Of a stretch of 64,000 bases of DNA, positions 5,189 to 60,159 are shown piece after piece. The position numbers were made by a program, and so were the translations under genes. The notes under the pieces are model-generated. The model was given only the letters and a program-made list of their open reading frames with translations. It was not told the DNA's origin and ran no database searches. How positions within the stretch are numbered: position 1 is the stretch's first letter; every line of letters starts with the position of its first letter. The DNA comes from Diphasiastrum complanatum (lineage: Eukaryota > Streptophyta > Lycopodiopsida > Lycopodiales > Lycopodiaceae): the NCBI GenBank assembly GCA_029204225.1, contig CM055110.1, forward strand, positions 34,667,947-34,731,946, read 5' to 3'.

Positions 5189-8100
5189 CTTTTGACAAAA
5201 ACACACCACCAAAAAGGGCAATGACATATCATAAGTATAAACTTAGACAAGATACAAAAGTTCAAGATGAAAACATCTTTTGACATTTTCCACTGCTCCA
5301 AGGAGAATGAAAGCTCTTAATTGAAAAATTGAGTAAGCAAAAGTATAAATTGAATCTCAAAGAGCACCGTTGACATCCTCTGGTCAGCAGCATAAATGCA
5401 AAGCTACCTGCATCTACAGATAATTACAGTAATAAAACCAAGACATATTTGGTGAATTTATTTGGATGTTAAAGAAGTCCCATCTCTGAATATGGTGCAA
5501 TGAAACACAGAAGATTCTTCTCTGCATTTGGAGCAAGCCTAGCAAACAGGTATAAAATCAGCCAGCTTGAAAGTAAAATTTTGTAGGGCCTGAACCATTT
5601 CAGAGTGCGCCCCACTCCAGTCTATAGCTGGCTTATGACTGAAAAGTTGAGTAAGCAAATAGTATAAATTGAACCTCAAGGAGCACCGTTGACATCCTCT
5701 GGTCAGCAGCATAAATGCAAAGCTACCTGCATCTAAAGATAATTACAGTAATAAAACCAAGACATATTTGGTGAATTTATTTGGATGTTAAAGGAGTCCC
5801 ATCTCTGAATAAAGGTGCAATGAGACCTCACATAAGATTCTTCTCTGCATTTTGAGCAAGCCTCGCAAAACAGGTATAAAATCAGCCAGCTTGGAAGTAA
5901 AATTTTGTAGGGCCTGAACCAATTCAAAGTGCGCCCCACTCCAGTCTATAGCTGGCTTATGACTGAAAAGTTGAGTAAGCAAATAGTATAAATTGAATCT
6001 CAAAGAGCACCGCTGACATCCTCTGGTCAGCAGCGTAAATGCAAAGCTACCTGCATCTACAGATAATTACAGTAATAAAACCAAGACATATCTGGTGAAT
6101 TTATTTGGATGTTAAAGAAGTCCCATCTCTGAATAAAGGTGCAATGAGACCTCACAGAAAATTCTTCTCTGCATTTTGAGCAAGCCTAGCAAAACAGGTA
6201 TAAAATCAGCCAGCTTGGAAGTAAAATTTTGTGGCCTGAACCAATTTAGAGTGCGCCCCACTCCAGTCTATAGCTGAGCTAAAAAATAAATAAATCAAAA
6301 CATAACATGCTAATACTTAAAGAGCTTTAATAAGCATACGAAACATACGCTCTGTGCAATCAGAAAGAGCAAATGTACATAGTTATCAGATGTAAAATGA
6401 TTCACTTCAATTAGCACTAGATGTATCTAGTCGATCAACAGTCTTTGCTTGGAAGCTGATCTGATTTGCAAAAGGATGCTGTTGCCAATGAATCAACTGA
6501 GAATACAAACATTTGGAATCTTTTCCAATTTTTTCTAAGTCTGAATATTTTTACCCTGATGTATGAAAAAATGCCCATTAGCACTTTCCAATAGATTATG
6601 GTATATAAAAGAGCATATAAGCATGCATGGTTAGAGTATTTCTTATAAACAAGTATACAATCTTAAGTGTGTCGTATCAGATTACAGGTGAATATTTCTA
6701 GCAGAGAGTTCATAGCACCTTTTGATACACAAAGTATCCACTCTCTGACGAAAGCCAGGTTGTTGCTTGCATTAGAATTATTCCAAGGGTGTCTGTAATC
6801 TTGCAAAGTTTTCCAAAGGGGGTATTCTTTTTACTTCTCATTTTTTTTTTGTTGTTCTTTTTGCATATGTGATTGGATCTTGTTCTTTCCTATCATTCCT
6901 GAGGATTCTTAAGATCCATTTTCTATCCATTTTTGACCTCTTAAAAGTGAAGGTTTTGAAAAGTCAAACATTGGTCAAATAGGAATATTTTGTTTTCTGT
7001 TTTAAAAGATTCTGTTTTTGGATCTTTATATACTTTGTTTTTCAAGAAATTCATTGCACTTTACGGTTCGCCAAACGGGTGTCTCATTCCCAAGATAAAA
7101 CACTTTGAAGTCGTGCCCTACTCTACCACCTTCAGCCCATTTGCGAATTTCTTTGTGGCTGTCCAACGCCCTACCCCACATTGAGCAGCCAGTTGATGTC
7201 ATAAAGAGTCATAAAATCTTGTCTTAATTGCATGATAAATATAAAAATCTATCTCAAGAGCATAGATGAGTCTTCAAGTCTTAAGAGTCTGAAATTAGTC
7301 AAGGCTAATCCTTAAATGTTCACACACAAGCATTGGTCCCAACAACAAATTTCTTATAAAAGTTGAGTAGGCACAAGTAATGGAGACACTATTGTACCGA
7401 AATGGGGATAGATTTTTGTCAATGAGCAGCATGGTCTTAGAACATCTAGCCTCCACGAGTGTTTTAGATATGATCCATCAGCATACAGAACAGAGCTTGA
7501 CTGAATTATGGCAGATGATGATACAACTCATGGTCTTTATATTGATCAAAATAGTTTTGATCATATCCCAAACGGTCTCCATATGAGTCGTGCACAGACT
7601 CCTATGACCTCCGTTCCGCCCGTCTACGTCCGTATCACAAATTTCAATTTTCATGCCCTGATTCCATACTTTTTAGGATTTAGGAGTGGACCATCGTGCA
7701 AACATCTGCTAGGGGCGCGGTTTAGGCCCACACTGCACTCCTTTATGCCTGCACGGACTCCGACGCTAACGTCAGTCGCCTGTTATCCCTCATACAGAAA
7801 TCATTCTATCCCACGCCCTAATCTCATGTTCTTCTTTGGCACTTGATATAATGTGTGAACTGGAATTGTTCTTATGTATGCTCTGGTATTTTGAGCTCTA
7901 TTTGAGCTCGGTAATGTTGTTCAATGCAATGTATTTTTTTTTTACTGAACGTTTGCCTGATTATTTGTTGTTTGTAGGTTTAGGGTCGTGTTGATACGAT
8001 GCCAATGCAGGACCGAGGCCTTTGTGCCGAGGTTGAGCTTACCGACGGGGATGTGGGCACACACCATGGCTCAGGCACCCACAGATGGAGATGCTTGCAT

Positions 8101-11100
8101 TGTGGTGGTCACTTCACGGGATCACTCACCAGGGTTAGGGCTCACTTGCTGCGGGTCAGAGGGCTAGATGGGCGGACATTGGGCATAGCTGATTGCCCCA
8201 GGATTTCTGATGAGGATTTGCAGAGGTTGTCTACCATGTACGGGCCCGATACTGCATCACAGGGTTCTAGACAGGGACAGGCATGCAGGAGGGCTCACAA
8301 GCAGACAGGCAGGGCCTACCATGGATATTGGGCCCAGTACTACGGATCCTCCAGAGACTCCTCGCCCTCGTCAGGTGCATTGTTCTATCGCTCTCGCTCT
8401 GCCTCCCGGTTAGCCCGAGCTGCCTCCTGGTTAGCCCAACGGCGGGCAGCTCTTTCCCTGACCATGATGAGCTGCCGTCGTGTGAAGTTTATTCCGATCT
8501 GCTCATCCAAATCCAGCTTGACAGCGGGGGCTGGGTGCTCCGGCTCCGGATTTCTTTGCCGAGCCTGTTGCAGCATCTCTGCAATCTCTGCCTCTTGCTT
8601 CCGATGCCTTTCGTTGTGCCTTCGGACATCTTCCTCGAGCTTCTTCCTGGCTTCGCCCTCAGGCCTTGGTGATATGCGCTCTGCCATCTCACGACCCCTC
8701 GTTTCTCGAACTGGCTCTCACAGCCTCTCACAATGCCTCTCACAGCCTCTCTCTCACAGCCTCTCACTGGCTCTCACAGCCTCGTGAGTGTGATCCCTCC
8801 ATGTGCCCTTGTACCTGTCCCCACCACATGCTGCACTCCCATTGGCCCCATGGCCTGCTCCCCCACAGTGCCCATGTGCTACTGTACCTGCCCCATGTAT
8901 TGCTCCCCCACATGCTGCACTCCGATTGGGTCCGTGGTCTGCTCCCCCACAGTGCCCATGTGACGGTGTACCTGTCCAGATTTGCTGCTCCCCCACATGC
9001 TGCACTCCCATTGACCCCAAGGTCTGCTCCCCCACAGTGCCCCCTGTACAGTCCCTCTGTACAGTCCCCCCTTTTTCCTGAACCCTGACACTTTTTTTTT
9101 TCAAAATTTTTTACCCTAAATTACTTTAGTAAAAGGGGTTTTTAATAATAAAAAATACTATTATTATGGTGCCACCCTGGTACCGCAAGTCTGAGGGCGG
9201 CACCATAATGGCGGTACCATGGGGTACTATGATATATATCATGGTACCGCCATTATGGTGCCGCCCTCGAAAACGCGGTAGCAGGGCGGCACCATATTTA
9301 ATATTTTTTATTATTTTTTAAAATATTTTTTCTGATAAAAAATGCTAAAAAATGCTCTAGGGTGCCCAAAAAAAGCCAAAAAAAATGCAAAAAAGGGTTT
9401 AGGGTATTGTGTATTGTTGTGTACAATGTACTGTGAATGCATGTACTGTGTACAATGTTTCTGAGACATTGTTTATCAAACATCACTGTACAAGGGGCAA
9501 GTACAACACATGGGCATAATGGGGGAGCAGACCATGGGGCCAATGGGAGAGCAGCACATGGGAGAGCAACACATGGGGGCAGGTACAGGAGCACATGGCA
9601 GGATCATCAACAGCTGCACATGGGCAAACAGCTTGTGGGGATAAATAGGCAATGTGATTGCCATTGTGAGACGCATTGTGAGAGGCATTTTCAGAGGCTG
9701 TGAGTGAGAGGCTGTGAGAGCCTGTGCGAGAGCCTGGGTGTTGTGAGAGAAAGTCGATCGAGATGGCAAGGCGCATACCACTTGACGTGAGCGTTTGGCC
9801 TGTATCCGTTCGCATGCAATTTAGGCTTGTTTTGTGTTTTTTAAAGTTTATTTCCATCGTGGTATATAGCTTGATGGGCTGCTGCTTTGTGTGCAGATGA
9901 CGAAGCTAACAGAAGAGGTCCGAAGGCACAATGAAAGGCATGAGAAGCTTTGCGCAGAGTTTGAAGAGAGGCAGCGAGAGATTCGGCAGAGACACCCGGA
10001 GCTGCAGCCCCCTACCCCCGTTGGTGAGGGCAAGGAAACACAACGGCAGGGAATTAACTACACTGCGCAACAGCTGGACATGGTCAGGGAAAGGGTGCAA
10101 ATTCGTCGGGCTAACCAGGAGGCAAAGCAAGAGATTAATGCACTTGACCAAGCTGACGAGTTTGTGGGATCTTCGGTGCCTAGTTAATGTCCTTAAACTT
10201 GCATGGTTCCCGCATATTCAGTGCATCCTAATTGCCAAATTTGTTGAGCAATCAAATAACTACTACCACTATATCTTTCTATCCCTATATCTTTAAAGCA
10301 ATGCATGTTGGTCATGCCATTTAGATTAGTAATTAGGATGATTCTCTTCATATTGTATGCTTGCTGTAGATGTGAGATGCAAGGTGAGACTTAGGGCAAA
10401 ATCTCTTCCTCCTGTGAATGCATGTACTGTGTACAATGTTTATGAGACATTGTTTATCAAACATCACTGTACTTCTTTACGGACTTGAGCCCGACATTAT
10501 GTAATGTCACATTTTTACACTCTGTCTTGTTTGGTTTGTGTTTCGATATTTTGAATGATTCTTTGATTGCGACATTAATGATTCTTTGATTTGGCTTTCC
10601 AATGTTCTAATTTGTATTCAAATGTTTAACTAATATATAGTGTTGGAGAGAAGATCTAGTGTTTTCTATATGACTAATGAAATTAATTTTAAATATGATT
10701 CACACACGCACATAAATATACGAGATAAAATTGTCAACAAAGCATGACAATACAACATCGACATATACATAAGGTGCAACAGATAAAATGTGTCAAAAAC
10801 TGGATACAATGTATAAAATAGTCTTAATACAATGTTCGGCCGTCTGGCCACCAAACATGAAACATGATATCAAACTGCTATATAATGAACAACAGAGTCG
10901 ATATCGATGCCTGTCTGGAACTGGCAGAGGCTGTGTATCCGAGGAAGAGGACTCGTCATCCACATCCTCCCAATCTGCCTCCTCATCAGCCCCCAAGCAA
11001 GACAAACCGACAAGACCTGTTCCAACTGGCTTTGATTGTGCTCCTGTAGCCCTGCGAGGTCGCCCCCTCTTCCCTTGCCCTTTCTGTTTCTGTGCTCTGC

Positions 11101-14100
11101 CTTCTCTTGTTCGGTGCACCCTTGAGCCTTCCTGGTCTCTTGCGGATGAGAGGAGCAGTCAATGCCTCATCATCCCCATGCAAATCACCTGGCTGGCTAG
11201 GCTGGGCCCAAAGTTGAGGCCGGCTGGAATAGGAAAGCCAAAGATGGGACTCCCTCAGCAGCTGAGTGAGGAGGCGCTGCCCGTGGAGTGACTGCCCGTG
11301 GAGCTACTACAGGTGGAGGAATTGGTTGTGGAGGGGCAGTTCCTGCAGGAGGCAATGACAGTGGCGATATGTACTAAAAGGGGCGCTGTGGTCGCCGGTA
11401 ATGGTACATCTTGGGCGTTGCCAAAGGAGGAGCCAATGGAGTGGGTGCTGCCAAAGGATGAGGCAGTGGACTGGGTGCTACCACAGGAGGAGCCACTATG
11501 GATGTGGGTGAAGGGTGCTACAAAAGTGGATGGCAATAGAGGGGCTGCAAGCCTCAATGGCAGCGGTGGCACTGGAGGTGCTGTGCGGCGCATCTAAACC
11601 CTCTGAGGAACTGGAGGCACCTCATGGAGCTGATCTGGCTAAGCCTTTGTGTAGGGCATGCTGGCAAGAGATGATGGGGGTGCCCTAACACTCGGCATGA
11701 GCTGGGCCTCTGAGTCCAGTGTGGCAATCAAGTCGTCTAGCTCTGCATCCAAATACAAATGCTCTGGGCTCTGGGCCTCATCACGTGCACCATCCTCTGG
11801 CTCATCCCATGCCTCATCCTGTGCACCATGTAGACCCTGCATGTCATCCCAACTGCTACCATCGAAGTCATTTGGTATCTCATTTGGTGTACTATTGAGG
11901 TCACCTCCAAAACGTTGTGCTACATGCATCCAAGTAGATGTGGGATCTGTTAGAAATCCACAAATCATAATATGGATGGACAGACTAGGATTCGAACCCG
12001 GACCTCCCTCATACCGGATGGGATGCTCTACCACTGAGCTATTCGCCATGTTTGATAGTTCTCTCTAGAGTGTGGATTGATATTCCAATACCGCCCCTCA
12101 AGCCACACTTGGTTGGGGTCATAGCTGTCACCTGCCCCACAACTTGGGCCACCTAACCGTGGCTTCGACACCATGAACTGTTAGGTCTAACTTGGCTCTG
12201 ATACCATGTTAGAAATCCATAAATCATAATATGGATGGACAGACTAGGATTCGAACCCAGGACCTCCCTCATACCGGATGGGATGCTCTACCACTTAGCT
12301 ATCCGCCCTGTTTGATAGTTCTCTCTAGAGTGTGGATTGATATTCCAACAAGATCCGCTCCTATATCACTCTGCCCTCCATCGAGAGCCTCCTCCATCAT
12401 ATCATATGTAGATATGCCACTGCCCCCCCCCGTGTGCCCTGCCTGTCCCCTGGTAAAACCTGTGCCACTTGCCCCACCTTTGCCACCTAATGCACCTGTG
12501 ACCCCTGTCGTCGCATATGTTGGTTCCTCTCGGTGATCAAGCCCAAGCTCTCTCTGAAGGTCAATGTCGTGCGTTGCACAAGGGGTATGGACGATGTGGG
12601 GGAACTCGGCCTCTAGGAGGACACCCATCTGAACACAGTTGGTGGCATTGTCCGTCACCACCGTAACAACATGCTGGGGGCCTATGGACAAGATGGAAGA
12701 CCTAATGACACCAAACATGAACTCTGCAGATATGACTCTCCCCCCCCCCCCTGCTGCAATCCACGGCCCTCAAAAATTGTGTGCCCATACAGCTGGAGAC
12801 CAAAATGTTGAGGATCGGCCTCCTGACGTCAATCCAGCCATCGGACATAATGCTGCAACCGTATGTGGCCTAGTGGCACCTGAGAGGCTCCATCTCTCTA
12901 GACAAGGACTCTACCCTATCTCTCAACATGTGTGTGCGAACAATCTCTGAGCTAGGGACTCTCCAGCTAGGGCTCACCGACTGTGCAAGGTGGAAGGCCC
13001 TTTTGAAGGGCTCGGAATCAGTGATGGCAATTGGAAGGTTCAACTCACAAATCAAACTGGCCACGGCCTGTGTGGCCTCTCTGTCCATGTGCGGCTGATG
13101 GGCGCCACAAATCGTCTGCTGCCTAAGAACTCTCTCTGCAGGGCGACGGGTAGTGGACCTCCAACATGGTGCACCAACTGTAACGGGAATGGATGATGAC
13201 ACGGCAGGCTGGGCACTAGTGGATGCATCAGCTGTAGACGTGGAATGGGGAGAAAGGGATGCAGTGGCAGATATGGGTGCAGCAGCATACGTGGGAGGCA
13301 CTGGAGGGGCAACAACGAGAATGGGAGACTGCAACTGCTGGCTCGGGACGTCATTTGGGTGAGAAGGGAAGGAGGAAGGGATCTCATCAACATCCTCGAA
13401 TGCCTTGTCACTAGCATCCTGGGCCTACTCGGGTGGCGGAGAGTCCATGAGGAAATCATAAACTGGGGGCGTGCGAGCAATAGGAGATGCCGGTGGAACC
13501 GTAGTGGCAACTGGTGGATGCGAGGGGACTGGTCCCACCGGAATGGGTGCAGATGATGGTGCATGTGGCGGAACTGTCTGAGGGGGATGAAGAGCAGTAG
13601 GCCGGGACGAGGATGCATGCTCTTTCCTCGAGCGTGCCAGCCAAGCAGGCAGCAACTCAGGGTCAGCCACATAAGGTGTCGTGCAAAACCTGAGAACACC
13701 CTCCGAAATGGTATTCTCCCCCACCACAAGATGTGGCCCGTAGGTGTCTAGTAGTCGCTGCCTGACCGGGACGGACATACTGGCACAAGGGGCAGCATTT
13801 ATGGAGGCACCATTTTTGGCACGTGCACCGAGCAGGCGGCCTTTAAGGCGAGTGAGGATCGCAGTGAACTCGACCAGGCAATATCGGCAATGCACGACCT
13901 TTGCACTGGTCTTGTTGGACTTGTCGGCAACCCTCCTGACAACATCCACCTTCCCCCACAAATTGGCAAGGTCGGATAGCACCATTGTGATGGAGAAACT
14001 AGCAAGAAAAATCAGAGACTATTGTAAATGCGATAGGAAGCGGAAAGCTGGAAAAAAAACAGCAAAGACACGGGAAAGAGATGCTGAAAACAGGTTATGA

Positions 14101-26600: not shown

Positions 26601-29600
26601 TTTAGGATGCTCCATACTGCTCATTCACAATTGAACTTCAAGTTTGGCCATAACTGCAGTCCAAAAGTTTCTGGTGAATCGAGTATCCCTGTCAGACACT
26701 ATGGATAACGGTAATCCTTGAAGTCTGAACACGTGCTCGATAAACAAATAAGCTACTCCAGTTGCATCAATCTTTTTACGCATTGGAATAAAATGTGCCA
26801 TTTTCGTGAGTCTGTCAACTACGACCAAGATAGAATCATGCTGCAACTGCGTGCGAGGCAAGTTGGTGACAAAATCCATGGAGATACTCTCCCATCTTCC
26901 TTCTGGCACAGGTAGTGGGTGTAATCCTTTCAGCTTTAGTGACTTGGCACTTCAAACAGTGCGTCACGTATTGGTAAACATTTTTTTTAAGCTTAGGCCA
27001 CCAGAAGTTACGTAAGATCAACTCATAGGTCTTATCCACACCAAGATGACCTGCACTAGGGCTATCATGACATAAATGGACAATCTTCCTACGCAGCTCC
27101 TCACAAGCTGGAATGAGAAGTTTGCCATTTCTCCTGATCATACCATCTTCTATGGTATAACTTGCGCAAGATTTGCCTCCCTCACAATTCCTTGACAATG
27201 AGGATCCTCTTGCTGAGCTTGTCTAATCTCAGCAATCAGTTCATTTTCTATGGGATATCCCCCGGGAGCATCGTCTATGTCGCTTGTGCTCGTTACAGGA
27301 GGTGGAAGATGAAGCCCATTTCCTCCTCAGATGTCCGTTGTAATATGAGATACGGGGGAGGTATTATTGTCTCTTTCGCGATGGCCCGCATACACTTCGC
27401 AGTTTTGTCTCCTATCCGGATGCTCGTTGCTTGGGACTTCTTGTTCGTGAGATGCTTACTCTCCGTCAGTCTCATCTGCCTGTACCAGATCACCTGGGGT
27501 TAGACTCCCGGCAACTGCTTCTCACTGGCTTCTTTCGGACTCGAGCACATGCTGATGACTCCGATGATGAGATTCCTATCGCTGTGCCACCGTGGAAAAA
27601 GCCCAGATGTAGTCGGCACTCGCCTCCATCGGGGCCCATTGTACAGTCCACTCAGCGAACATTTCACACTTACTTTCGTTGATATGTACTTATTCTCCAC
27701 CTGGCCCGGGTTGTGGGCATTGGTACTTTTTCTGTAGTTCTTTTGTTATACCTGGCCCGGGTTGTGGGCTTATTTCACTTATGCTTTGTTCTACTTTCAT
27801 TCGTAGCTAGTTTATAGCATTTTACGGCCACGTCCTCCTATGGATGATGCTCCCACTATTGCTTGTACATATTTTCTTTTTGGTCTTATGCACCCACGGG
27901 TGCCCAAAAGACGTAAATAAAGCTTTCTCTCTCTCTCTCTCTCTCTCTACAGGGATATGTGCTTCTAGCAGGGGACGGCCACAAGACAGACGGAGTTCCA
28001 TGCAGTGACAGATCACCTCCAACTTCATGCTTTAGATACAGGATTTGAGCAGGCTTCTTAGGAAGCGGATACCACTCCTACCTCATTTGGTGAGCAGCTT
28101 CTTAGGATTACGAAGGCACATTCCTTGGTTATTCTGAATGGATTATCACAGTGGCCAGACTCTGCAGCCTTCACCTGTAATCCTCATGGAGGTGGACATA
28201 GTGTGGTGGGCACACACACACCAGCCTTGATTCCTTTTATTCACAGTTTTAGCATCCTCCCTCCTACTCTCGCTGATCACTCACTGCTCTCTATTGGCCA
28301 GACCTCTCCCCTTCCACCCATATCTCGACCCAAGATCCTCCAGCCAAGTTTTTCTTTTCTCACACCCTTCATTCCACAATACATCTCCACACTTAACACT
28401 CTTTTGCAAGATTTCCCCTTCTCCTCTTCTATTGAGTACCGGGCCTCTTCACATCAATTGGCTATTGAGACAGGCAGATATACATGCATTTTGAGAGAAC
28501 AGTGGGCTTGTCAACTATGTTCATTGGGAGTGGTGGAGGACGAGTTTCATTTTATATTTATCTGCCCTACCTACTATGAGATACAAGGCCGCTATCACTG
28601 CTTATAATGAGACACTCCCCTCACCCTTAGCACCTTCCTAGATATCAGGATCCCAGATGTGTTGGACTTTTACTACGAGAGATGCTTATACTGAGAGCTT
28701 CTCTGATACCTTCAGAGGATACTACAGATCATAGCCAGCACCTTATCAATAGCCTTTTCCAGAATCGGGAGCGAGGTGACCTGTCAGATGATGAGGCAGA
28801 CATACCAGTGAGGACGAAGGCCCAGTGTGCCCCCAGCAAACCCACATGAGCCATCAGATCAGCCAGGTCTTCTAGAAGAGTTCGACACCAGCCACAGACC
28901 ATAGATTCTAAGGGCATCAGACGCGTCTTCCGAGATTGCTTTGTCTGTACTTGTACATCTCTTTCCTCACCTTCTTCCTCAGCAGAGCAGGAGGTTAAGC
29001 TCGAGCACTTGTACCGTCAATAGAGATGGCAATTAAGCTCTTACATGATTATTGTGTATACTCTTTTGACTAGCTAGAGAGAGTTTTATACATTTGGTTA
29101 GCTTAGACTAGCTAGTTTTATTTTTTATGTTGTCCGATATGGACAATGCTCCTCATAATTATGTATGTATTTTTCCTCTCTCTCTCTCTGGTCTTTTAGC
29201 ATTGGTCTAGTTCGAGCGTGGTTGTACAATGAATCATATTTTTGATCCCGTGCATGATACGTGCCAAGACTACCACCCCTCATGATATCCTATGTGCTGA
29301 GTTTGCTACTCCTCCGATCATCCTTGAGGGCTTTTTCCGCCTTATTCTTTTTTTTCAGCGGATTCAGGAGATTCGTGCATCTCACCCGGATAGATACATA
29401 GTTGTTGCGGTTACTTCTTCACGTGTCCTAGCTGATTCCCACGCCAAGCTATCCTGGTACCAGCAGGCGTCTGATCTCTTACAACATCTGGGCATCTCTA
29501 TCATGGATCTTCCTCGTGGTACGCATTCATATATCCGAGGCTATTTATTCCGTCGATATATGCAGCAGACTTGGAGCTCCCTCCCACCTTCCCGTATTCG

Positions 29601-32600
29601 ACTGAGCTATTACCAGACACACTTCCTCTCTCTGGATCCTTCTGGTTTGCCATTGTTGCCGCTCTATCTCTCACAGCCCCTATCACACGGCCTGCGCTAT
29701 CGTCTTGCGCATTTCCTCTCATCAGCTTGCTATTGAGGCCGATCGTGCATGGGATATCCCCCGGGAGCGTCGTCTATGTCGTTTGTGCTCGTTGCAGGAG
29801 GTGGAAGATGAAGCCCATTTCCTCCTCAGATGTCCGTTGTATTATGAGATACGGGGGAGGTATTATTGTCTCTTTCGCAATGGCCCGCATACACTTCGCA
29901 GTTTTGTCTCCTATCCGGATTCCAGATGCTCGTTTCTTGGGACTTCTTGTTTGTGAGATGCTTACCCTCCGTCAGTCTCATCTGCCTGCACCAGATCACC
30001 TGGGGTTAGACTCCCGGCAGTTGCTTCTCACTGGCTTCTTTCGGACTCGAGCACATGCTGATGATTCCGATGATGAGATTCCTATCACTGTGCCACCGCG
30101 GAAAAAGCCTAGATGTAGTCGGCACTCGCCTCCATTGGGGCCCACTGTACGGTCCACTCAGCAAACACTTCACACTTACTTTCGCTGATATGTACTTATT
30201 CTCCACCTGGCCCGGGTTGTGGGCATTGGTACTTTTTCTATAGTTCTTTTGTTATACCTGGCCCGGGTTGTGGGCTACTTTCATTCGTAGCTAGTTTATA
30301 GCATTTTACGGCCACGTCCTCCTATGGATGATGCTCCCACTGTTGCTTGTACATATTTTCTTTTTGATCTTACCTATCTTTTAGACTGTATACAGGTTCA
30401 AAGGTTTCAGATCCAGATCCACTTTCAAGAGTTATTCAAGCTCAAAAATCATCAAAAATACACTAAATTTCGACTTTTTGAGGTGACCGATTCCTACCAA
30501 ACTTTGTGACAGCCTCTGGACAGCTTCATTACACATCTAAGAACATGCATGCAAAGTTTCATGCATGGATCTTAAGAAGAACTTCGAAAATAGTGAAAAA
30601 TCCATCAAAAAACCTTGTTTTTGACCATTTTTCAACTTTTTCGGCAAAGATCTTGTGGATCTAATCAACATGCAAGTGCAATCAGGCCCAATCAAAAAGT
30701 TCTGATTTTGCTAGATTAGAGCTCTTACTACCCATTTCTAGTCGAAAATCCTCAAAAACAAGCAATTTTTTGAGTAGAGCATAGCCTAGAATCGTAAATC
30801 TTGCAAATTTTCGGCATGCAATCATTAAATCAGCATTTAATGACTCCCTAACTAAAGGTACACTTGCTGGAAATTCAGATCTATCATAAGTTATGAGATA
30901 CACAAGAAAAACCCTGAAAAACAGTCATAAACTGGCTAAAATCGACAATCACCCCTAACTGCTATGGAGAAAGCCAATATCAAATGGACCTTAGCAACAT
31001 GCAAGTGGAAGTAACACCCACTTGGAAGCTTGTTCACGACCAGGAAGAGAAAATGGATTGATCTCCACGACGAAATGCTCCATAGCTCCAAAACCTTCGG
31101 TCTTCATAAGCCTTTGACATGTATTTTTTCGTCTTATAGCCTTTTGGCATGGAAAGACATCAGTTATATCGTACTCCATTGTATCGTCTCTCAGATATAT
31201 CATTCATGAGTAGAGTAAAGTTCTGTCTAGTTCTCCTGATTTAGTCTTCTGATCTAGTAGCTGTTTGATTTTGCAGACATTTATATGCTCCTTTTTAACT
31301 GATTTTAAAATTTCTCCCTTCTTTTCTAATTAGAAATTTTTCACTTGCATAAACTGAATACAATCCAAGTTACACTGGACAGTACAAAGTCCCAGTCCCA
31401 GACCCAGTTGAATGCTTCAATCAAATTTCTAGATAAGATCATAAGAGGCAAGAGAGGGACTAATATAACTGCAAAAAAGCTAGTATTTGTTCATAAAAGC
31501 TGTTGCGTAGGACCTCACAGGCATAAAGGAGCAGGAGTCCAAAGAGGAAAGACATTGCTGTGACATTTAGCAGAAGGTAATGACTACACTTAAGTCATAT
31601 CTGATCTGACTACACAAAGGCTGGTTCTCTAAGGGAAAGAATTTCTGAAGCTACTTTTCCCCAGCGGACTGTGTCAGAACCCCTAGCAATGTTACTAATA
31701 TTTCAAATCTTGAGAATGTGTACTCACAGCAGTTTTGACAACAATATCACAATCAAGCAAGCAGATATCTATACGGCAAGTCATAACAACACTACCAGTG
31801 TCTCTCAATGTGTCATTTGGGTTAAGCTGCTAACTCTATCTTTGTCCAGTCTTGTGGCTTTCAGTAAGGGATGCTTCCTCAAGAACGAAAAAAGAGGTAA
31901 CAGAACCTTGTTCATCAACAGATTCTGTTGCTAATAATGTCTTTCTACAGAATGTTCAATTCCTCTCTGAACTGAGCAGTGAGTAAACTAGGGAGTTTTT
32001 GGTGCCAAATGAGGCAAGGGAATCTTTCCTTCGCGGTGCATAACTTTCCGCAGACACAGAACTGTGAAGGACGTTGTTTGTTTGTCCTGATATCCCATTA
32101 CTAGGATTCTACCTAAAGCAACCTAGTGGCGAGAACTGGCTAATTATATTTGGGATTAGGTCATATGGACTGAGGCTATAAAGCCGAAGGGGCCAGGGTC
32201 TTCCAGGTCATTTGTTCCCAACAAAAAATTCTGAAAAATAATCATGAACTATTACAAGATAAGAACAATTAAAGGGCTATGAAGAAAAGAGTAAAACTAG
32301 GAGAACACCGAATTTTATTTTGAGGACTGACTATGAATAAAAAAGAGCAGCTGTTATCTTGATTTTTGTAACACGTAAGTGTCTCACACAGTCAACAACA
32401 TCCTAGCATGCAGTTGGAGGTTCTATAGAGCTTGATGTATTAAGTCAGTGAAAGAAAGCAAGTTCAGGCGAAGCCAGCTTACCAGCACAATGGGAACATC
32501 AGCCCTTACTACCAAATCTTTAAGAAAGTGAACCTGGGCAAAACAGTTAACAAGTCTCAGTCAAAATCTCAAATCACGCATGTGCCTTCGAGAAACAGTT

Positions 32601-41600: not shown

Positions 41601-44600
41601 CAAACTATTTGGGTAGTTGATCCTTGCCCTACTTTAAGGGCCCAATAAATGCATTTTTTATACCAAATGTCAATAATAATTTGGTCCAAAATATCCAAAA
41701 CCCAGATGCTACGTGGTCCTAGTGCCATTCAATAAAGTGCAGGCCCATTGGTCCATTTTTGGTAGTTCATGTCCATAACATATATCCTATAAGTCTCATT
41801 GATTCACAAGTGACAACATCCTCATTGTCTGTACAAAGAAAATATTGAAGTTGCAAAATTATGATGTCGTCAAGATGTTGAATGTTGAAAAAATATCATC
41901 TAGATTCCAAAAAATGGAAGATGGTCATGCCACAAAAAAGAAAGAGGTTGATGCCCCAAAGATAAAAATATGAATCGCCAAAAATACATGGAGGGTGATA
42001 ATTGGATCAAAATGCAAAGAATGCCAAAAGGAATGAATTCCACAACAACAAAAGGGTACCAATAGTAGTGTCCAATAAAAGCATATATGTTAGGAATAGC
42101 ATAACCACAGGAAGGCAAGCTAGTCCGATCCACCCAGCCTATGCACTCTCTTATAGAATGCCCCTCCTAGCCCAGTGTGAGTTTGCATGGATGTGGTAGG
42201 TGGTAGTTACTGCTGACACCCATCGTTCATGTTGCATGCATGGGTTTCTGATGTATGCGGGGTCCCAATCCATCACTGAAGAACTGCATGGCCTCCTACT
42301 GGCATGCATGTGTCTGCATGGGCATTATTGGTTCTCCTACCTACTGCATGGTATGCATGCATGCCACTGACTCACATTGTCCTCTGCCTTTGGTGGTTAG
42401 TAGCACCTAGAAGTATTGTTGGGTCAGCATTGTTACAGTCTCGTAACACTTCTTCCCCCTTAAGAGCTGTCCTGGTCCTCTAAGACAAAATCTGGATACA
42501 ATTGTCAAAGCATGTTGCCTTTTTCCCAAGTGGCATTCTCAACTGGCTGATCCTTCCACTTGATTAAATATTCCTGAGATAGGGAATGACGTGTTTGCGT
42601 CTCCATAGAACTAAGAATACTTTCTGGCTCATGTGGAAGTTGTTGAGAATCTGTGGGGGGGGGAACTAGAACACTATCCCTTTGTCAGGTTCTCCCTAAT
42701 CTTCCTATCGACACCCGTCCAAAACATGCACTAATCGCCACAAATATCAAACCTTTCTGATTCCCTATAAGCACATAGCATCAAACACAAACACAATGGA
42801 GCTGGCTTCGACATCTCCACCTAGCCTTTGCTGCATAGATCACGATGAAGAATGCCTCTCTCTAGGCTCACTTATCCATGACCCTCAAGCACCCCTTAGC
42901 CCCCTGACCTTCCTATCGTCGACACATGGGCAATCCCATGCACAGTCGACGCTCGCCACTAGGCAGTACTCTGACACATAAGCAAGCACGTTAGTTGACA
43001 TGTGTCACTCATTCACTAGACCAAGTGTCCCAGTGAGCATATGACACATGTCATGTGTGACCGGTTGTTACGAGCTCGTAACCAGTGCCGAACCCTAGAG
43101 AACACAGATAGGTCAGATACCACAGTCGGGGTCGTGTCCAGCGTACATGACCAACAGGGCAAGACAGTGTGAGTAGTGTGCCCCAGCACGGTCCATAGCC
43201 ATGGCGGGCCTAACACAGCCTAGGGACCCTGTCAGCAGGATAGGGCCCCTAGTTGGGTCCCGACGTGCAGTCGGCCACTACTGTGCCACGTGGCCGACAC
43301 TTGGCAGTAGCATGCTACCAGTCCTCACACTAGGCTAGGAGGGGCTTACTCTATATCAGGGAGTAGGCAAGGTTGGGTGGATCAGTTAGTGCTTGCCCTA
43401 CTGTGGTGTTAGGACCTATTACACTGGTATCAGAGCCATCTCCATCCTAGGGAGTTTAGGACAGCAGTAGAGAAAGCTATCAGAAGATAGGAAGTGTTTC
43501 TCAGATTCTCAGAGAGGAATAGAGGAGGAGGATCGCTGTAGGAGCAGCCTTCAAACTTCTGATTTCCACTGAGAAATCACAGTAGCAAGGAGTCAGATTC
43601 CAAGTGTAGGTAACTCGCTGAAAAAACAGCTGTTTCTCACTGACTTCAGAGGATTCTTCGTAGTTTTCCCAGCGAAATTAGAGTAGGAAGAAGCCAGCAC
43701 CTCCATCGCTGTACAGTCAGAGACCTACATCCGATTTCCAGGGAAAAAGTTACTGGTTTTCAGCGAGTTGGAAGCCAAAAAAGAGGAGCAGGGCCAGCGC
43801 TGCCAGTGCTTCTGAAAATCTGGTTTTTCAACAAGTTTTTGGGCCCCAACGTCAGAGATTTGGAGCAAGAGGATTTCTACCAGATCAGCGAGTAGGAGAC
43901 TTCTGAAATTTCAGAACTCAGAAGGGTTTTTGGACTTCAGATTTGCCTTTTTGTGGACAAGTTGGATTGCAATCAGACCAGCGAGCTACTATCCTCAAAA
44001 AACCGGGTACCGTTTTGAAGCCTCAAACTGGCATTTTTCGGAACAGCAGGTCTGAAATTTTGGGGAAAAGAGCTGAAAGGGTTCCTCTTCATTCTTTCTT
44101 TGGAAGTACAGTCCTCAGAAACAGCTAAGTCATCTTTCCTTTCCCTTGTACAGTTGTAAATTAGTCTTTTAGACTTTTTTCCTTCAGAAGTTAAGGTAGC
44201 TCTCTTTCAGTTTCGAAGATGACCACTCCTCAGGGACCTGATCAACCCCAGGAGAGAGGCTTCGACGAACTTGAAACAGAAGCCTTGGCTTACAGAAAAG
44301 GGAAGGAACCCATGGAAGTAGAAGAACAGGAACAGTTCGCCGAAGAACTCGACGAACTAGTTACCAAGGAGCAGTTCCTCCAATTGGTAACAGAAGTGGA
44401 TGAACTGAAGCTGGCATTAGCCAATTTCAAGTCCAGTGTGGACGACTCGTTCGCTGAACTCAAAAACTTGATTTTGAGCTCCGCGAAAGGAAGCCTTCCC
44501 TCCACTTCTCAGTTATCCCCTTCTCCACTTCCATCAGTTTCGGGTGAGACTTTACGGTCTCACCCCAGTGTTTTTAAAGATTTAAAGCCTCCTACTTTTA

Positions 44601-47600
44601 ATGGGGAAGAGAAGGATAGAAATGCAGATATTCTACAAACCTTCCTCAGCAAATGGAAGAACATTCATGCTCTTAAACAGACCCCTGACCATTTGCAAGC
44701 AATTGAGGCCAGTCTTTCTTTAGGGCCTATGGCCTATAAGTGGTGGTTAAATCTCCAGGAGACTGGGCAGACTCCCCGGTCATGGAAAGCTTTTGAAGAA
44801 GCTTTCCTAAGAGAATTTCTACCAGAGAATGAACTTGATAGAGCCTGGGAAGCCTGGGAAAGAACAGTAATGGACAAGTCCCTCATCCAATATATCTCGC
44901 AGTATCGAGAGGCAATTTTAAAGATTAAAAATATGGATGACTATCAAAAAATCAGGGGATTTGTCCGTGGCCTCAAAGATGAATATAAAGTAGAGGTCCA
45001 GAGAAACTCGCCTACTACCCTTGAGCAAGCTCTCAGATATGCTCAAATCTATGATGATTCAGTGGGTAGGAAGAGAGCGAGACAGCAACCACTTTCTGAG
45101 CAGCTTCCTCATAAAGACTTTCAATTTAAAAAGAAATTTTTAAAAAGAAAGAAAGAAGATAAATTTAAAGGTGAAGCTCCTCAGAAACGCCCTTCACTCA
45201 TACAGCCCTTAAAACCAGATGATTTTGAGAAAGCCAAACAGGAACGTTTGTGCTTTGTGTGTATGGGCAAGGGACACACAGTCAGACAGTGTCCCAAGGG
45301 GCCTTTCACTAAAAAAGATAAAAAAGATAAAAAACAAGTTCATCTTGTTCAGACTGTATGTTTCCCCAGTAACTCGGCAGCTTCCGAGATCAAAGTGTAT
45401 CATGAAGATCATGAACACTGTTGCCAGCTGACCTCTGCAATGCTAGCGAGACCCTTCAGCTTTGGGCCGCATGACCTAGTACGTATGCATGGGAAAGTTG
45501 GTAACCAGTCAGTAAGAGTCATGGTTGATGATGGGGCAACCCATAATTTCATCAACCACACCCTGGGTAAAAAGCTTAAACTACCAGAAGTACCTAGTCA
45601 GCATAGGTACATAGTTTCATTAGCTAAGGGTGAAGATAAAAAAATATGAGAAACTATGGTAAGTAAGTTAAATCTTGGTATTCAGGGGTACCAAGATCAA
45701 ATAAACTTTCACATAATGCACCTGGATCGAACAGACATTGTTCTCGGGAGAGATTGGCTCTACAGTTTAGGACCTTCCCTCCACAGAAACTATCAGGAGA
45801 ACACCCTCAGCTTTCAGTATAAAGGCCGAGAGATCCAGTTGCATGGGGAGCATGATGTTCCCAACAGCCCTATGGTCTGCAGTTCAGAGCTCTGTCAGCT
45901 AATCGAAGACGAAGACCGTCAGGTATTCTTATGTGACTTTCAGTTTATTCCTGAAGTTTCTATTTCCAGTTCTATTCAGCAGAAAATCAGTAAATTAGAA
46001 ACTTTATTGTCTAAATTTAAAGATGTTTTTCCTGAAGATTTGCCACATGGTTTACCACCTAGCAGAGAGGTAGATCATGTAATAAACCTAGTACCAGGTA
46101 CAGCACCTGTTTCTAAACCTCCGTATCGGGTCAGCCGAACAGAGGATGAAGAAATAACTAGGCAGTTAACAGACTATCTTGGGAAAGGCCAAATTCAGAC
46201 CAGTAGTTCACCATGGGCCTCACCAGTCCTATTGGTGAAAAAGAAAGAGGGGTCTATGCGTCTTTGCGTAGATTACAGAGCCCTCAATAAAGTCACAATT
46301 AAGAATAAATACCCTATGCCTCGAGCAGACGAGTTGTTTGATCAACTCGACGGGGCTAAGTTTTTCAGCAAAATAGACCTCAGATCGGGATATCATCAAG
46401 TCCGTATAAAATCGGAAGATGTCTCGAAAACAGCTTTTAGGACTCGTCACGGTCATTATGAGTTTAAGGTGATGCCATTTGGGCTCACAAATGCTCCAGC
46501 TACCTTTATGACCTTGATGAACAGTGTCCTCAGACCATACTTGGGTAAGTTTGTAGTCGTATTTTTAGATGACATCCTCGTCTACAGCAAAACGAGGAAG
46601 GAGCATCTAAAACACCTCAGAAAGGTGTTTCGACTGCTCAGAAAGCATAAGCTTTATGCTAAACAATCCAAGTGTGAATTCTTCGTTGAAGAAGTAGCAT
46701 ATTTGGGTCACATTATCTCTTCAGATGGGATTAAGATGGACCCAAATAAGGTTAAACCCATACTCAGTTGGCTGAGACCTCAGAATATTTTGGAACTTCA
46801 AATCTTTCTTGGTCTGGCGGGATATTACAGACGATTTGTCAAGGAATATGCTCAGATAGCAGTCCCTATGACAAATCTCCTTAAGGGGAAGGGAAAGGAG
46901 TTCATTTGGGAGTCCGCACAACAGGAGAGCTTTGATGCTCTCAAAACAGCCTTAGCTACAGCACCAGTTTTAAAGGTCGTCGACCCCAATCAGCCATTTG
47001 TGGTCGAAACAGATGCTAGCGACTTTGCAGTAGGTGCTGTGCTAACTCAGGGTGGACGACCAGTTGCGTTCGAGAGTAAAAAACTCGAGCCAGCACAGAC
47101 TAGGTATAGTGCCTATGAAAAGGAACTCTTTTCTATAGTCCATGCCCTTAAGACTTGGAGGCATTATTTGTATGGTGCCAACTTTGAGGTCCTGACAGAC
47201 CATGAGAGTCTCAGATACCTTTGCAATCAACCTGAGCTTAGAGGTCGGAAAGCTCGTTGGGCAGAGTTGATGCAAGAGTTTGACATGTCTATCAGATATA
47301 GGCGCGGAAAATTCAATACAGTAGCAGATGCCCTTAGCAGAATGCCTATGATAAACGAGCTGAGTTTTACTCAGATTCGTAATGAGTTACTCGAGTCCTT
47401 GAGAGGGAAATGCCAGCATGATGCATTCTTCTCTATTATCTGGAACTCAGTCCAGAACAGACAGTTACAGACTCCAGAACCAGTTCCCGGGGCTGGTGCC
47501 AGTTCATCCAAGAATACGGCAGCTTCCGTTGAGGATGATGATGAGTCCGAGTATACGTCGTCAGATGACGTTGAGGATTCTGAGCCTGTATTACCCAAGC

Positions 47601-50600
47601 AAACCCTAGTGGTTGAGGGTCAGTTGACTCAAGGATTCAAATGGAAACAGTATTCCATTCAGGATGAGTACTTGCTCTATAGAGATAGAGTATGTGTCCC
47701 CAATTCAGAGGATTATAGGCAGCAGGTCCTATATGAATGTCATGACAATCCTAGCGCGGGACACCCAGGCATACAGAAGACCTATGAGCTTCTTCGTAGG
47801 CAATTTTTCTGGCCCAGTATGAAAAAGGACGTCCACCAGTATGTAACCAGTTGCCAGAAATGTCAAGTAAATAAAGCAGAGCGTTTAAAGGCAGGAGGGT
47901 TGTTGCATCCCTTAGAAATACCAGCTGGTAAATGGGAGAGTATCTCCATGGATTTTATAGTAGGCCTGCCTAAAACCCAAAAGGGTAATGACGCTATATG
48001 GGTCACAGTTGACCGTCTGACCAAAATGGCTCATTTTATTCCGACCAAAACAACCGTTAGAGCTCCAGAGTTAGCGAGGTTGTTTGTAGACGGGCTATTT
48101 AAATTGTACGGTCTACCTTCCGGCATAGTCAGCGACCGGGACAGTAAGTTTACTGGAAATTTTTGGAAGGCAGTATTCCATCATCTCCATACTAAACTTA
48201 ATATGAGTACCACCGACCATCCACAGACGGACGGTCAAACAGAAAGGGTAAATCAAGTGCTGGAGGATATGCTTCGTGCATACGTCAGCAAGAGGCAGAC
48301 TAATTGGGAGGAGTATCTCTCGATATTAGAGTTTGCTTACAACAGTACCAAACATTCAGCTACGGGATACAGCCCATTTATGCTGATGTACGGTTTTCAG
48401 CCACGCTCACCCACAGCTGTAGGGTTTAAACAAGAAAAAGTTGAAGCAGCCAGAAACTTTTTAGAAGACCTAAACCAGATGATAGAACATGCTAAGCGTA
48501 GCATTAGACAATCCCAGGATCGAGCCAGGCATTATGCAGATCCACACAGACGGGATGTGCAGTTCTCCACTGGTGAGAGAGTCTACTTGAGAGTCCCAGT
48601 TGACTCTAAAACCCTCAAATCAGGAGTGTGTGCTAAGTTGTCTCCAAGGTATTGTGGTCCCTTTACCATCAGTAGGAGACTAGGCGAGGTCACCTATGAA
48701 CTAGAACTCCCACACAGCAGTAAGGTTTTTCCAGTTTTTCATGTAGGTCAGTTACGAAAAGCCTTAACCAGATCAGATAATCTGGTAGGGGACAGTGTTC
48801 TAGTTCTCCCATTGGATCCTCAACAACCTCCACATGAACCAGAGGAAATTCTTGATAGTAGAGAGACGCAGACTCGTCATACTCTATACCGAGAATATCT
48901 GGTTAAGTGGAATGATCAGCCTGTTGAGAATGCCACTTGGGAAAGAGGCAGCGTCCTTCGCAAGATTTTTCCAGACTTTGTCTTAGAGGACCAAGACGGT
49001 TCTTAAGGGGGAGGGAGTGTTACGAGCTCGTAACCAGTGCCGAACCCTAGAGAACACAGATAGGTCAGATACCACAGTCAGGGTCGTGTCCAGCGTACAT
49101 GACCAACAGGGCAAGACAGTGTGAGTAGTGTGCCCCAGCACGGTCCATAGCCATGGCGGGCCTAACACAGCCTAGGGACCCTGTCAGCAGGATAGGGCCC
49201 CCAGTTGGGTCCCGACGTGCAGTCGGCCACTACTGTGCCACGTGGCCGACACTTGGCAGTAGCATGCTACCAGTCCTCACACTGGGCTAGGAGGGGCTTA
49301 CTCTATATCAGGGAGTAGGCAAGGTTGGGTGGATCAGTTAGTGTTTGCCCTACTGTGGTGTTAGGACCTATTACACCGGTCAACCCTGACATGTGTCACT
49401 CATTCACTGGACCAAATGTCCCAATGAGCATATGACAAGTGTCAGTTGACCAATCAACCCTCTCCTACAAAACAACAGTGGCAAGTACTTCTCCAACTGA
49501 GTTTGCTTATCCCCAACAAATGCCCTAAGCATATCCTCCAAGGTCTGGTTGACTCTCTCAGTTTGGCCATCCGTTTCAAGATGCTCTGTACTGCTCATTC
49601 TCAATTGGACTTCAACTTTGGCCATAACTGCAGTCCAAAAGTTTCTAGTGAATCGAGTATCCATGTCAGACACTATGGATGACAATAATCCATGAAATCT
49701 GAACACATGCTCGATAAACAAATTAGCTAGTATCAATCTTTTTACGCGTTGGAATAAAATGAGCCATCTTAGTGAGTCTGTCAACTATGACCAAGATAGA
49801 ATCATGCTATGACTGCGTACGAGGCAAGTTGGTGATAAAATCCATGGATATTGTCATGCCCATGACTGGTCTCGGGTAGCGTGTCCACGCTAGGGACCAG
49901 TAGACCAACAACCCATAAGTTAATTGTGACTATAAGGGAATTGGGGCCCTTATGTGTATATGGTCATAATTAATGGTTGTAGGCCTAAAACACTTGATGG
50001 TGGATTTGTATGGGTCTGCAGAGGTGTCCAGTGAGGTGTCACAGTGCACTACTAGTGGTGCATGGGCCTTGGAGGGCACAAATGATGTTCGAATATCATT
50101 CAGATGTCAGTCGAATATCAATCAACAATTGCTCAACTACCACTAAAATTTTAATCAAATATCTATCGACTAACTTTAAAAGTGTATCCAAACAACTTTG
50201 AATTATGCTCTGAACTTTATTTGTCTGAGTTTTAGCTATAGGCTCATTAAATCAAGATAGTATAGAATCAAACAACAACATACTATATCATTCGATTGAT
50301 AATCGAACCTTATAGCAAAACTCGTAAAGAACAAAGAGTCTATAGAAAATTGTTAGAGCCACATGTGACTAACACCAAATATATTACCTTACCAATTTTG
50401 AATACTACGACGGGACTCAGAATGTAAAATCTATGATCGCTTTATTATCTGCGAAGGGGGGTACAACACAATACTACATGAAAATGCTTTATACTATCTA
50501 ACTAATCAATATCGTGTAAGTCCTTGATCCACTGCCTCATATGATGGTATTTTTTCTTCTCAGAATTGAGATTCAGATAGACCCCAGATACAATAGGCTG

Positions 50601-53491: not shown

Positions 53492-53777
53492 CACATGTAT
53501 GGTTCTTTGAAACATGCTTTCAATATTTGTGGGTTGACCTTTTCATTGAAGGTAGTAAATGATGCAGGGACGTGTAACTTTCATGTTGGAAATGGAGGCT
53601 GATTTGCAATGACCGGTGGGATTTTGGTTTCAGACACATGTATGGTTCTTTGAAACATGCTTTCAATATTTGTGGGTTGACCTTTTCATTGAAGGTAGTA
53701 AATGATGCAGGGACGTGTAACTTTCCTGTTGGAAATGGAGGCTGATTTGCAATGACGAGTCGGCTTTTAATTTCAGA
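53492..53777. repeat. Tandem duplication, 143-bp unit, two copies
   Basis: CACATGTATGGTTCTTTGAA begins at 53492 and 53635. The copies stay nearly identical up to TTTCAGACA. Confidence 0.85.
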
Positions 53778-54640
53778 CAGTTGTCTTCCCATAACTTGTG
53801 GACTATTTCTTTTTTGTATGGATGAGGTATTTAGCTGTGTTGTGGAGTTTAGCACCTTGCAAAATTGGGTTCCCATGAGTCATCCAAACTAGTCTTTTAT
53901 TACGAATGGGAGTAGTCTCTATGAGAAAGTGAGTAATTTTTTTGTTTCTCTATTTCTCTGAAAACCATGGCCGAGGCTTGTACTTAACATATCAAGACAT
54001 TTTATTATGTCGTTTTCAATTGCACATTCAAACACAAGTAACGTGCAAATGAAAGACAAAATAGAGGGATGGATTATACAAGAGTATATTTTGGCAATGG
54101 AAGCGAGATTTGATATATGTTCCAAATACATATCCACAGCAAGATCATTGTTTGGAAGTCACACTCCATGGTTCGGATAAGTGCACAATTCATAGTAGTG
54201 CAATATATTTTTTGGAATGGTATTTGGAACATGTAAATGGCTTATAATTATGTTTGAGTTGCAAACTGGAATGTGGATATCGTTTCCACTTCAATTTGAT
54301 TTGCTGAACCCTATTGCACATACCATTGTCGATGAGTACTGCTACCTCCTTTCCAATGGATCAAACATGTTTTTTTTTTTTAATAAAAGCACACATCGAC
54401 AAATAGAATTGGGACGCTAAAAAGGTTGATTCTAAAAATTGCTATTGAGAATGTACAAATGTGGATAGTTGTTGCTAGAATGCCTAGGCATTTGTAAAAT
54501 GTTATTGGTGGATTTAACTATGTCAACGCTTATTGTGTGGGACAATTTATTCACATTTTATTTTACAAATCCCTTCTTAGTTACCACTTCATGACAAAAG
54601 AATGGACAATTCATGGCATGTCAGGTAAATGTTCTTCGTT
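53778..54640. other. Non-coding stretch, nothing recognised
   Basis: AT-rich DNA without coding pattern or recognised repeat. Confidence 0.35.
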
Positions 54641-58690: not shown

Positions 58691-59890
58691 CTATGTTGCA
58701 ACTAGAGGGATACAAACCGAAGGGTAAATAGCACCTAGTGTGCAAATTTCACAAGGCTCTCTATGGTTTGAAACAGTCACCAAGAGCCTGGTTTCAAAAG
58801 ATCAACGCATTTCTAATCAAGAATGCTTTTATTCCAAACTCGGTAGACTCGAATGTTTACTTCAAGTCTGTTTCTACTTCCTTCATTATCATCACTCTTT
58901 ATGTCGATGATACGTTACTATTTAGTAACAATTTGAATTTCTTGAAGGATACAAAATGCATGCTAGCACATGAGTACAAGATGACTGATGGGTCCAGCCC
59001 ATTACTGTCTCAGAATCCAGATCTATAGAGATCGACCCAACAAACAGATTTTCATCAGTCAACAACGATATATCACTAATGTGCTAGACGAAATGACCAA
59101 TTGCAAATTGAGCTACTTCCCACTCGACCCTGGTCTGAAGCTGTCAAAGGAGCAATGTCCACAAACCGAGGCAGAGAATTAAAGGAGAAAAAAAAAGCAA
59201 TATTCGTTTCACTCCATTATCGGTTCATTAAAGTATGCCATGATATGCAGTCAACCCAACCTTGCATACTCGATCAGCTCTCTCAGCCCATTTCTATCGA
59301 ATCTAGGGCTAGTTCATTGGAAAGCTCTCATGAAGGTCATAAAATATGTCCAAGCTACAAAGCATCTCAGCATCTATTATGGAGGCAACCAATCTGCCAA
59401 TATTATCGAAGGATACACAGATGCAGATTGGGCAGGAGATATCGATACCAGAAGATCGACTTCTGGATTTGTATTTTTATACAATCAAAGCCCAATCTCA
59501 TGGAACAGCCAAAAACAGACCTCGATAGCATTATCTTCAACTGAATTAGAATACATAACTACCATGAATGCTACCAAGGAGGCAATTTGGCTCAAAAACT
59601 TGCTTGCAGATATCGACCTTGCTCAGGAATTTCCAACTACAATTTATTGTGATAATCAAATTACAATAGCACTCTCTCTAAATCCGATATTTCACTCTTG
59701 GAGCAAACACATCAAAATTACTACCTTAGAGAAAAAGTGCAAAGCAAGGAAGTGTCATTGTTTTATTGTAGGATAGAGTTAATGGCAATAGATTACTTCA
59801 CCAAGGCATTGTCCAAGGATCACCACATTAGATTTAACAACATGCTAAATCTGAAGATCCAAGTTTTTCATGATCCACTTTAAGGGGGAG
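58691..59890 (+). pseudogene. Second Ty1/copia 3' half: RT and RNase H
   Basis: RT with HKALYGLKQSPRAWFQKINA and the catalytic LYVDDTLLFSNN, then YFPLDPGLKLSKEQCPQTEA and RNase H YTDADWAGDIDTRRSTSGFV and YCDNQITIALSLNP. Frameshifts at about 59000 and 59200. It ends in AAGGGGGAG. Confidence 0.8.
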
Positions 59891-60107
59891 TGTTGGATTT
59901 CAATGCTCAAGACCAAATCCATTGAGTAATGAGCATTCTGAAAAATTCAGCCGAAGTCAACTCCATCGACTTCAAAGTCACCGACATCCAAGTCATTGAC
60001 TTCATCAATTTCAACTTCTCCTTGTATATATTCCATCATTAACTCGACATCGACTTCATCAACTCACACTCACTGATCCCACCGATTTCTGACATGGTAT
60101 CAGAGCT
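59891..60107 (+). repeat. Short copia LTR (204 bp) plus primer-binding site
   Basis: TGTTGGATTTCAATGC ... TTTCTGACA (59891-60094) follows a polypurine tract and is itself followed by TGGTATCAGAGCT (60095-60107). It therefore has features of both a 3' LTR (left side) and a 5' LTR (right side), as expected at an LTR shared between tandem elements. Confidence 0.65.
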
Positions 60108-60159
60108 CATCTCTGGTAACCTACCAATTTTCGACAGACCAGACATAGCTTTGCAGTCA

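Follow-up and report, generated by a model that had tools for sequence, protein, structure and literature searches.

A probable Helenus-type miniature LTR retrotransposon with tRNA-like sequences in its terminal repeats, inserted in a DUF659-containing gene

Miniature, non-autonomous LTR retrotransposons (TRIMs) that carry tRNA-derived sequence were named Helenus, within 'TRIMp3', in February 2024 (Kojima 2024, PMC10886601). According to the excerpted text of that paper, Helenus elements occur in fungi, animals and one plant, Selaginella moellendorffii, the sole plant with a characterised family; their lengths range from 311 to 1263 bp, the TRIM screen having used <1000 bp, and 5-bp duplications are given for those of plants and fungi. 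Most Helenus LTRs are described there as holding an A box with TRGCY and YGG and a B box with GGTTC. The family Helenus-1_SMo has LTRs of 120 bp, an internal region of 85 bp and 5-bp duplications, and the consensus sequences were placed in the supplement and in Repbase; on the same excerpt, the Pol III function of Helenus is without experimental validation (PMC10886601). Helenus is also mentioned, together with Ajax, in an excerpt of a 2026 meeting report (PMC12859917).

The element described here occupies positions 11948-12350 of the window, by which we mean the whole stretch of DNA that was analysed (64 kb). Its sequence has the anatomy of a TRIM, with an LTR pair, a PBS, a purine tract, a putative, imperfect 5-bp duplication, boxed tRNA-like sequences and no coding. 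We consider it likely that this is a non-autonomous LTR retrotransposon of the Helenus kind, driven by Pol III and helped in trans. The first-pass annotation had suggested that such a combination might be new; that suggestion has to be withdrawn, because the same combination, one plant included, had already been published as Helenus in the text cited above. The earlier reservation that the family might already be catalogued was justified as regards the group, which appears in that text as Helenus.

Anatomy of the element and its insertion site

The element is 403 bp long and lies on the minus strand. Its LTRs are direct repeats, the 5' LTR (TGTTGG...CTAACA) at 12207-12350 measuring 144 bp and the 3' LTR (TATTGG...CTAACA) at 11948-12090 measuring 143 bp. 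When aligned, they agree at 138 of 144 columns, the differences being five substitutions and a gap of 1 nt. One of the substitutions falls on base 2 of the 3' LTR, which begins with TA where the 5' LTR has TG. Between them lies a non-coding internal region of 116 bp (12091-12206, minus strand), and across the six frames the longest stop-free stretch inside the element is 55 codons. The PBS, TGGTATCAGAGCCAAG (12191-12206, minus strand), follows the 5' LTR with no spacer, and we take its first 12 nt to be complementary to the plant initiator-Met tRNA. A polypurine tract, GAGGGGCGG, with one C in it, stands before the 3' LTR (12091-12099, minus strand). The element is flanked by GGATC (11943-11947) and AGATC (12351-12355), which differ at one of five positions; the chance of a match in at least four of five is about 0.016, so the duplication is weak when taken alone. 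The skeleton of an LTR retrotransposon reported in the first-pass annotation (direct repeats, a PBS abutting the 5' LTR and a purine-rich tract before the 3' LTR) is confirmed, as is the lack of coding; the flanks are those of a putative 5-bp duplication with one mismatch.

The Jukes-Cantor distance between the LTRs is about 0.036 (5/142). At rates of 1.3e-8 and 2.2e-9 per site per year the insertion would be about 1.4 or 8 million years old, respectively, and hence not fresh-looking.

The element sits, on the same strand, in a frame containing a DUF659 domain (2.4e-12), a domain that presumably goes with hAT-like transposases. With the element present, that strand holds a stretch of 156 codons ending inside the 5' LTR and another of 141 codons starting inside the 3' LTR. 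When the element and a single copy of the 5 bp are omitted, 408 bp in all and so divisible by three, an uninterrupted frame of 240 codons results, which matches the prediction for an insertion and supports the 5-bp duplication. The joined translation has two protein matches (93 and 76% identical), both covering 23% of the query, and an uninterrupted homologue spanning the insertion site was not found in the protein search. The wider region (11000-14018, minus strand) is a decayed DUF659 (hAT-like) gene with interrupted frames, which shares 50 of 54 residues with P0001 up to a point of abrupt divergence, as if part of the gene had been deleted or rearranged.

The order of these parts bears on two readings that dispense with LTR retrotransposition. 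Like tRNA-derived SINEs (SINE2), the element has a putative internal Pol III promoter that is tRNA-like, and the insertion or duplication of such a SINE, or of a tRNA gene, could account for a sequence that resembles a tRNA head and contains A and B boxes. SINEs, however, have no LTR, PBS or PPT, all of which are present here. Moreover, the repeat extends over 143-144 bp with the tRNA part lying 42 nt inside it, a 12-nt PBS of initiator-Met type abuts one repeat and a purine tract the other, and the frame is open when the 403 bp and 5 bp are left out, all of which makes this origin very improbable. Direct repeats spaced by about 260 bp could also arise if a 260-bp segment holding a tRNA pseudogene were duplicated in tandem by chance, but such an event would have to coincide with TG..CA-type ends, a PBS exactly at one repeat edge, a purine tract at the other, a near 5-bp duplication and a frame that opens on omission, and we find it scarcely credible. 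Both a SINE without LTRs and a tandem duplication were rejected on the LTR-PBS-PPT order together with the empty-site frame.

tRNA-like sequences and promoter boxes in the LTRs

Each LTR contains a tRNA-like sequence that starts 42 nt inside it and lies on the sense strand of the element: 73 nt at 12236-12308 in the 5' LTR and a more degenerate 72 nt at 11977-12048 in the 3' LTR (both minus strand). ARAGORN calls tRNA-Thr(GGT) in both LTRs. Both were also scored with the Rfam tRNA model (RF00005), the 5' copy at 45.7 bits (E 1.5e-6 for the whole window) and the 3' copy at 28.9 bits, which is 0.1 under the curated cut-off of 29 bits. Near-consensus A boxes are found at 12291-12301 in the 5' LTR (TAGCTAAGTGG) and at 12031-12041 in the 3' LTR (TAGCTCAGTGG), and the B box GGTTCGAATCC is exact in both (12247-12257 and 11988-11998, respectively), all four on the minus strand; the spacing from A box to B box, start to start, is 44 nt in the 5' LTR and 43 nt in the 3' LTR. 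On both strands of the 64 kb, GGTTCGANNCC occurs at these two B boxes only, and the looser GWTCRANNC occurs 19 times on the plus strand and 13 times on the minus strand. Taken together, the tRNA calls, the RF00005 scores, the boxes and the lack of any other GGTTCGANNCC in 64 kb place the observation beyond chance, with the two tRNA-like parts counting as one ancestral event since the LTRs are copies of each other. The boxes and their tRNA spacing had been read correctly in the first pass, and a tRNA model check of the terminal repeats, as proposed there, came out positive for the 5' repeat and marginally below the cut-off for the 3' repeat.

In the cloverleaf of the 5' LTR the acceptor stem has seven pairs (two of them G-U), the T stem five (one G-U) and the D stem three. 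Its anticodon stem contains an A.A mismatch, and in the loop the anticodon is immediately preceded by C instead of the U (U33) found in working tRNAs. The 3' LTR cloverleaf has lost two acceptor pairs and one T-stem pair and has a D stem of four pairs. In energy folding against shuffled sequences, z was 0.07 for the 5' tRNA-like sequence and -0.24 for the whole 5' LTR, and the 3' tRNA-like sequence (z 1.89) folded worse than its shuffles. A working tRNA gene is not favoured, given the anticodon-loop C, the A.A mismatch and a fold no better than shuffles. Two further candidates were set aside: a match on the plus strand (12236-12282) to Rfam RF04351, the plastid psbL-rps4 3'UTR, reached 19.6 bits against a cut-off of 68, and a search for direct repeats flanking the tRNA part within the LTR, as a scar of SINE insertion, gave one shared 5-mer and hence no evidence of such a scar.

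The same features can be read in another way, namely that this is an ordinary TRIM transcribed by Pol II, whose LTR, in an ancestor, acquired a tRNA or a SINE head, now an inert relic. The fold that is no better than shuffles and the degenerate anticodon loop are in keeping with a relic, as is the position of the LTR differences, four of the six falling inside the tRNA-like part, so that no constraint is visible there in this copy. A relic accords less well with an exact B box and a near-consensus A box in both LTRs, with the score of 45.7 bits for the 5' LTR copy and with an element that is without TTTT. With one copy only, selection cannot be shown either way; on the whole, we regard the inert relic as unlikely and prefer a Pol III-driven element of the Helenus kind.

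Proposed transcription and mobility

The first-pass annotation presented the element as a TRIM with a tRNA-like promoter in each LTR, parallel to Cassandra. The anatomical side of this proposal stands (the LTRs, the RF00005 matches and the boxes); Pol III transcription, and with it the promoter function, we infer from the A and B boxes. We propose that the A and B boxes of the 5' LTR would be the assembly site of TFIIIC and TFIIIB and that Pol III would start at 12308 (LTR position 43) or slightly upstream. The polymerase would then read through the internal region into the 3' LTR, since the element has no TTTT on that strand, and would terminate either inside the 3' LTR, at a weak run of TTT, or in the flanking DNA, at a TTTT. 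Each end of the resulting RNA would comprise the LTR sequence from roughly position 43 on, and the molecule would thus possess the repeat required for strand transfer. Initiator-Met tRNA would prime at the PBS, the purine tract would prime the second strand, and an autonomous LTR element, Copia or Gypsy, would supply reverse transcriptase and integrase in trans; integration into the DUF659 (hAT-like) transposase gene would have made the 5-bp duplication. The tRNA-like part would act as a promoter rather than as a working tRNA, as the C before the anticodon and the A.A mismatch suggest.

In the transcribed strand, the 403 nt of the element contain no TTTT, and TTT runs only, two per LTR. A scan of the minus strand from 12450 to 11449 placed the first TTTT downstream of the putative 5' LTR promoter at 11909-11912 (minus strand), in the flank, 35 bases beyond the end of the element; a transcript from 12308 to this TTTT would be 400 nt at this locus. 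The lack of TTTT is thus compatible with full-length Pol III transcription. It is no evidence of selection, since, of 5000 copies simulated from the element by a first-order Markov model, 2981 were likewise TTTT-free, though among sampled 403-bp stretches of the minus strand only 1119 of 9086 were so. A point against the Pol III model is that RNase P and Z could cut the near-complete cloverleaf and sever the template.

A more specific version of this model can be put forward tentatively, as possible though somewhat short of probable. It holds that the element represents a Helenus family from plants outside the Selaginella lineage, that a tRNA or SINE was captured independently in a TRIM LTR, and that the full-length RNA for retrotransposition is made by Pol III from the tRNA-like sequence of the 5' LTR, in a TTTT-free read to the 3' LTR or beyond. 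If this is so, the 5' LTR cloverleaf must escape tRNA end-processing for the element to be mobile. A near-intact, TTTT-free cloverleaf also provides a test case for the way in which a Pol III transcript might escape both termination and tRNA processing and act as a retrotransposition template.

As to the helper, the first 12 bases of the PBS recur at 35076, 43425 and 60095 in the 64-kb window. At 43425, the Pfam domain order (reverse transcriptase, RNase H, integrase, chromodomain) marks the element as a Gypsy; that at 35076, read as Gypsy from its frame order, matches reverse transcriptase and integrase domains. The frame beside 60095 gave no Pfam match and is read from its translation as a Copia RNase H. 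In favour of Copia, the LTR end plus PBS (element positions 134-156) matches 60084-60106 in 22 of 23 positions, and the last 11 LTR bases agree in 10/11 with the Copia-like LTR as against at most 7/11 at the two Gypsy-type elements (spacers 0-3). Against it, the same 11-mer is also matched in 10/11 at 41454, 43872 and 14186 of the window, the last 24 LTR bases match the Gypsy at 43425 in 14/24 and the Copia-like LTR in 11/24, the first 16 PBS bases are exact in the Gypsy-like element at 35076, and the Copia-like frame lacks a Pfam match. A Copia helper may be taken as a lead only, and the assignment to the Helenus kind does not rest on it.

The Gypsy at 43066-49375, with its PBS at 43425, is near-intact, has a chromodomain and is flanked on both sides by CCGGT; its LTRs are of about 358 bp (the BLAST pair is 363 bp, 98.6% identical), with a gag-like frame at 44219-45649 and a pol frame at 45656-49006. 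The gag-like protein (44219-45646) has nine protein matches with E values of 0.001 or below; the top one is 39% identical across 96% of the query, and one in Asparagus officinalis is 23% identical. The type of PBS and the kinds of element present suggest that the host is a plant. At 59240-60500, a Copia RNase H-like frame and a purine tract are followed by an LTR-like stretch of 204 bp (59891-60094), a PBS and a second, diverged piece with 68% identity to 59315-59611; this looks like two Copia-like remnants with one common LTR.

Other copies and comparison with known systems

A second copy of the element was not found in the 64-kb window. Repeats of other kinds are present there: a tandem repeat with units of about 318 bp (5322-6276, 94-95% identical), a tandem pair with a 143-bp period (53492-53779, 95% identical) and two same-strand copies of about 640 bp (27250-27888 and 29749-30372, 92% identical) whose starts are 2.5 kb apart and which are possibly the LTRs of another element. 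An exact 17-base stretch taken from the tRNA-like part occurred in 14 IMG/VR contigs; the LTR pattern gave no hit in IMG/VR, the tRNA-part pattern none in the genome contigs collection, the element no match to plasmids, and the LTR-encoded peptide no candidate in the protein search. Since these collections consist of viral, prokaryotic or plasmid sequences or of proteins, they give little information on plant copies. Nor did the open-licence literature yield a further plant Helenus in titles and abstract starts among the matches listed. A further plant Helenus family would show that miniature retrotransposons have captured tRNA promoters more widely in plants. It would also show that such elements can burden plant annotations with false tRNA genes, ARAGORN having made two calls here.

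With ordinary plant TRIMs the element shares the form of an LTR-bounded, non-coding miniature (Gao et al. 2016, PMC4717578, in excerpt); the word 'tRNA' is absent from the main text of that survey, and its excerpted passages report no tRNA-bearing TRIM. Like Cassandra, it is a TRIM, probably of a plant, whose LTRs contain what appears to be a promoter derived from a Pol III gene (PMC7215508 and PMC10886601, both in excerpt). The Cassandra promoter, however, is derived from 5S rRNA, whereas the sequence here is tRNA-like, and membership of Cassandra was rejected because the element has no Rfam 5S match. Ajax, as excerpted from PMC10886601, similarly combines a small-RNA promoter in TRIM LTRs with a 5-bp duplication, but it is 5S-derived and comes from two nemerteans.

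The closest agreement is with Helenus as characterised in the excerpted text of PMC10886601. As in Helenus, tRNA-derived sequence lies in the LTRs (with the 3' copy 0.1 bit under the Rfam cut-off), the element has two LTRs, is non-coding and, at 403 bp, falls within the range of 311-1263 bp, and a PBS and a PPT, the latter with one C, bound the internal region. As in most Helenus LTRs, the A box and B box motifs are present, here as TAGCT..TGG and GGTTC in both LTRs. The 5-bp duplication of plant and fungal Helenus may have a counterpart here in GGATC/AGATC, which agree in 4/5 positions. Compared with Helenus-1_SMo (LTR 120 bp, internal region 85 bp), a comparison made by dimensions only, the present element differs in having an LTR of 144 bp and an internal region of 116 bp, and it is probably a further Helenus family.
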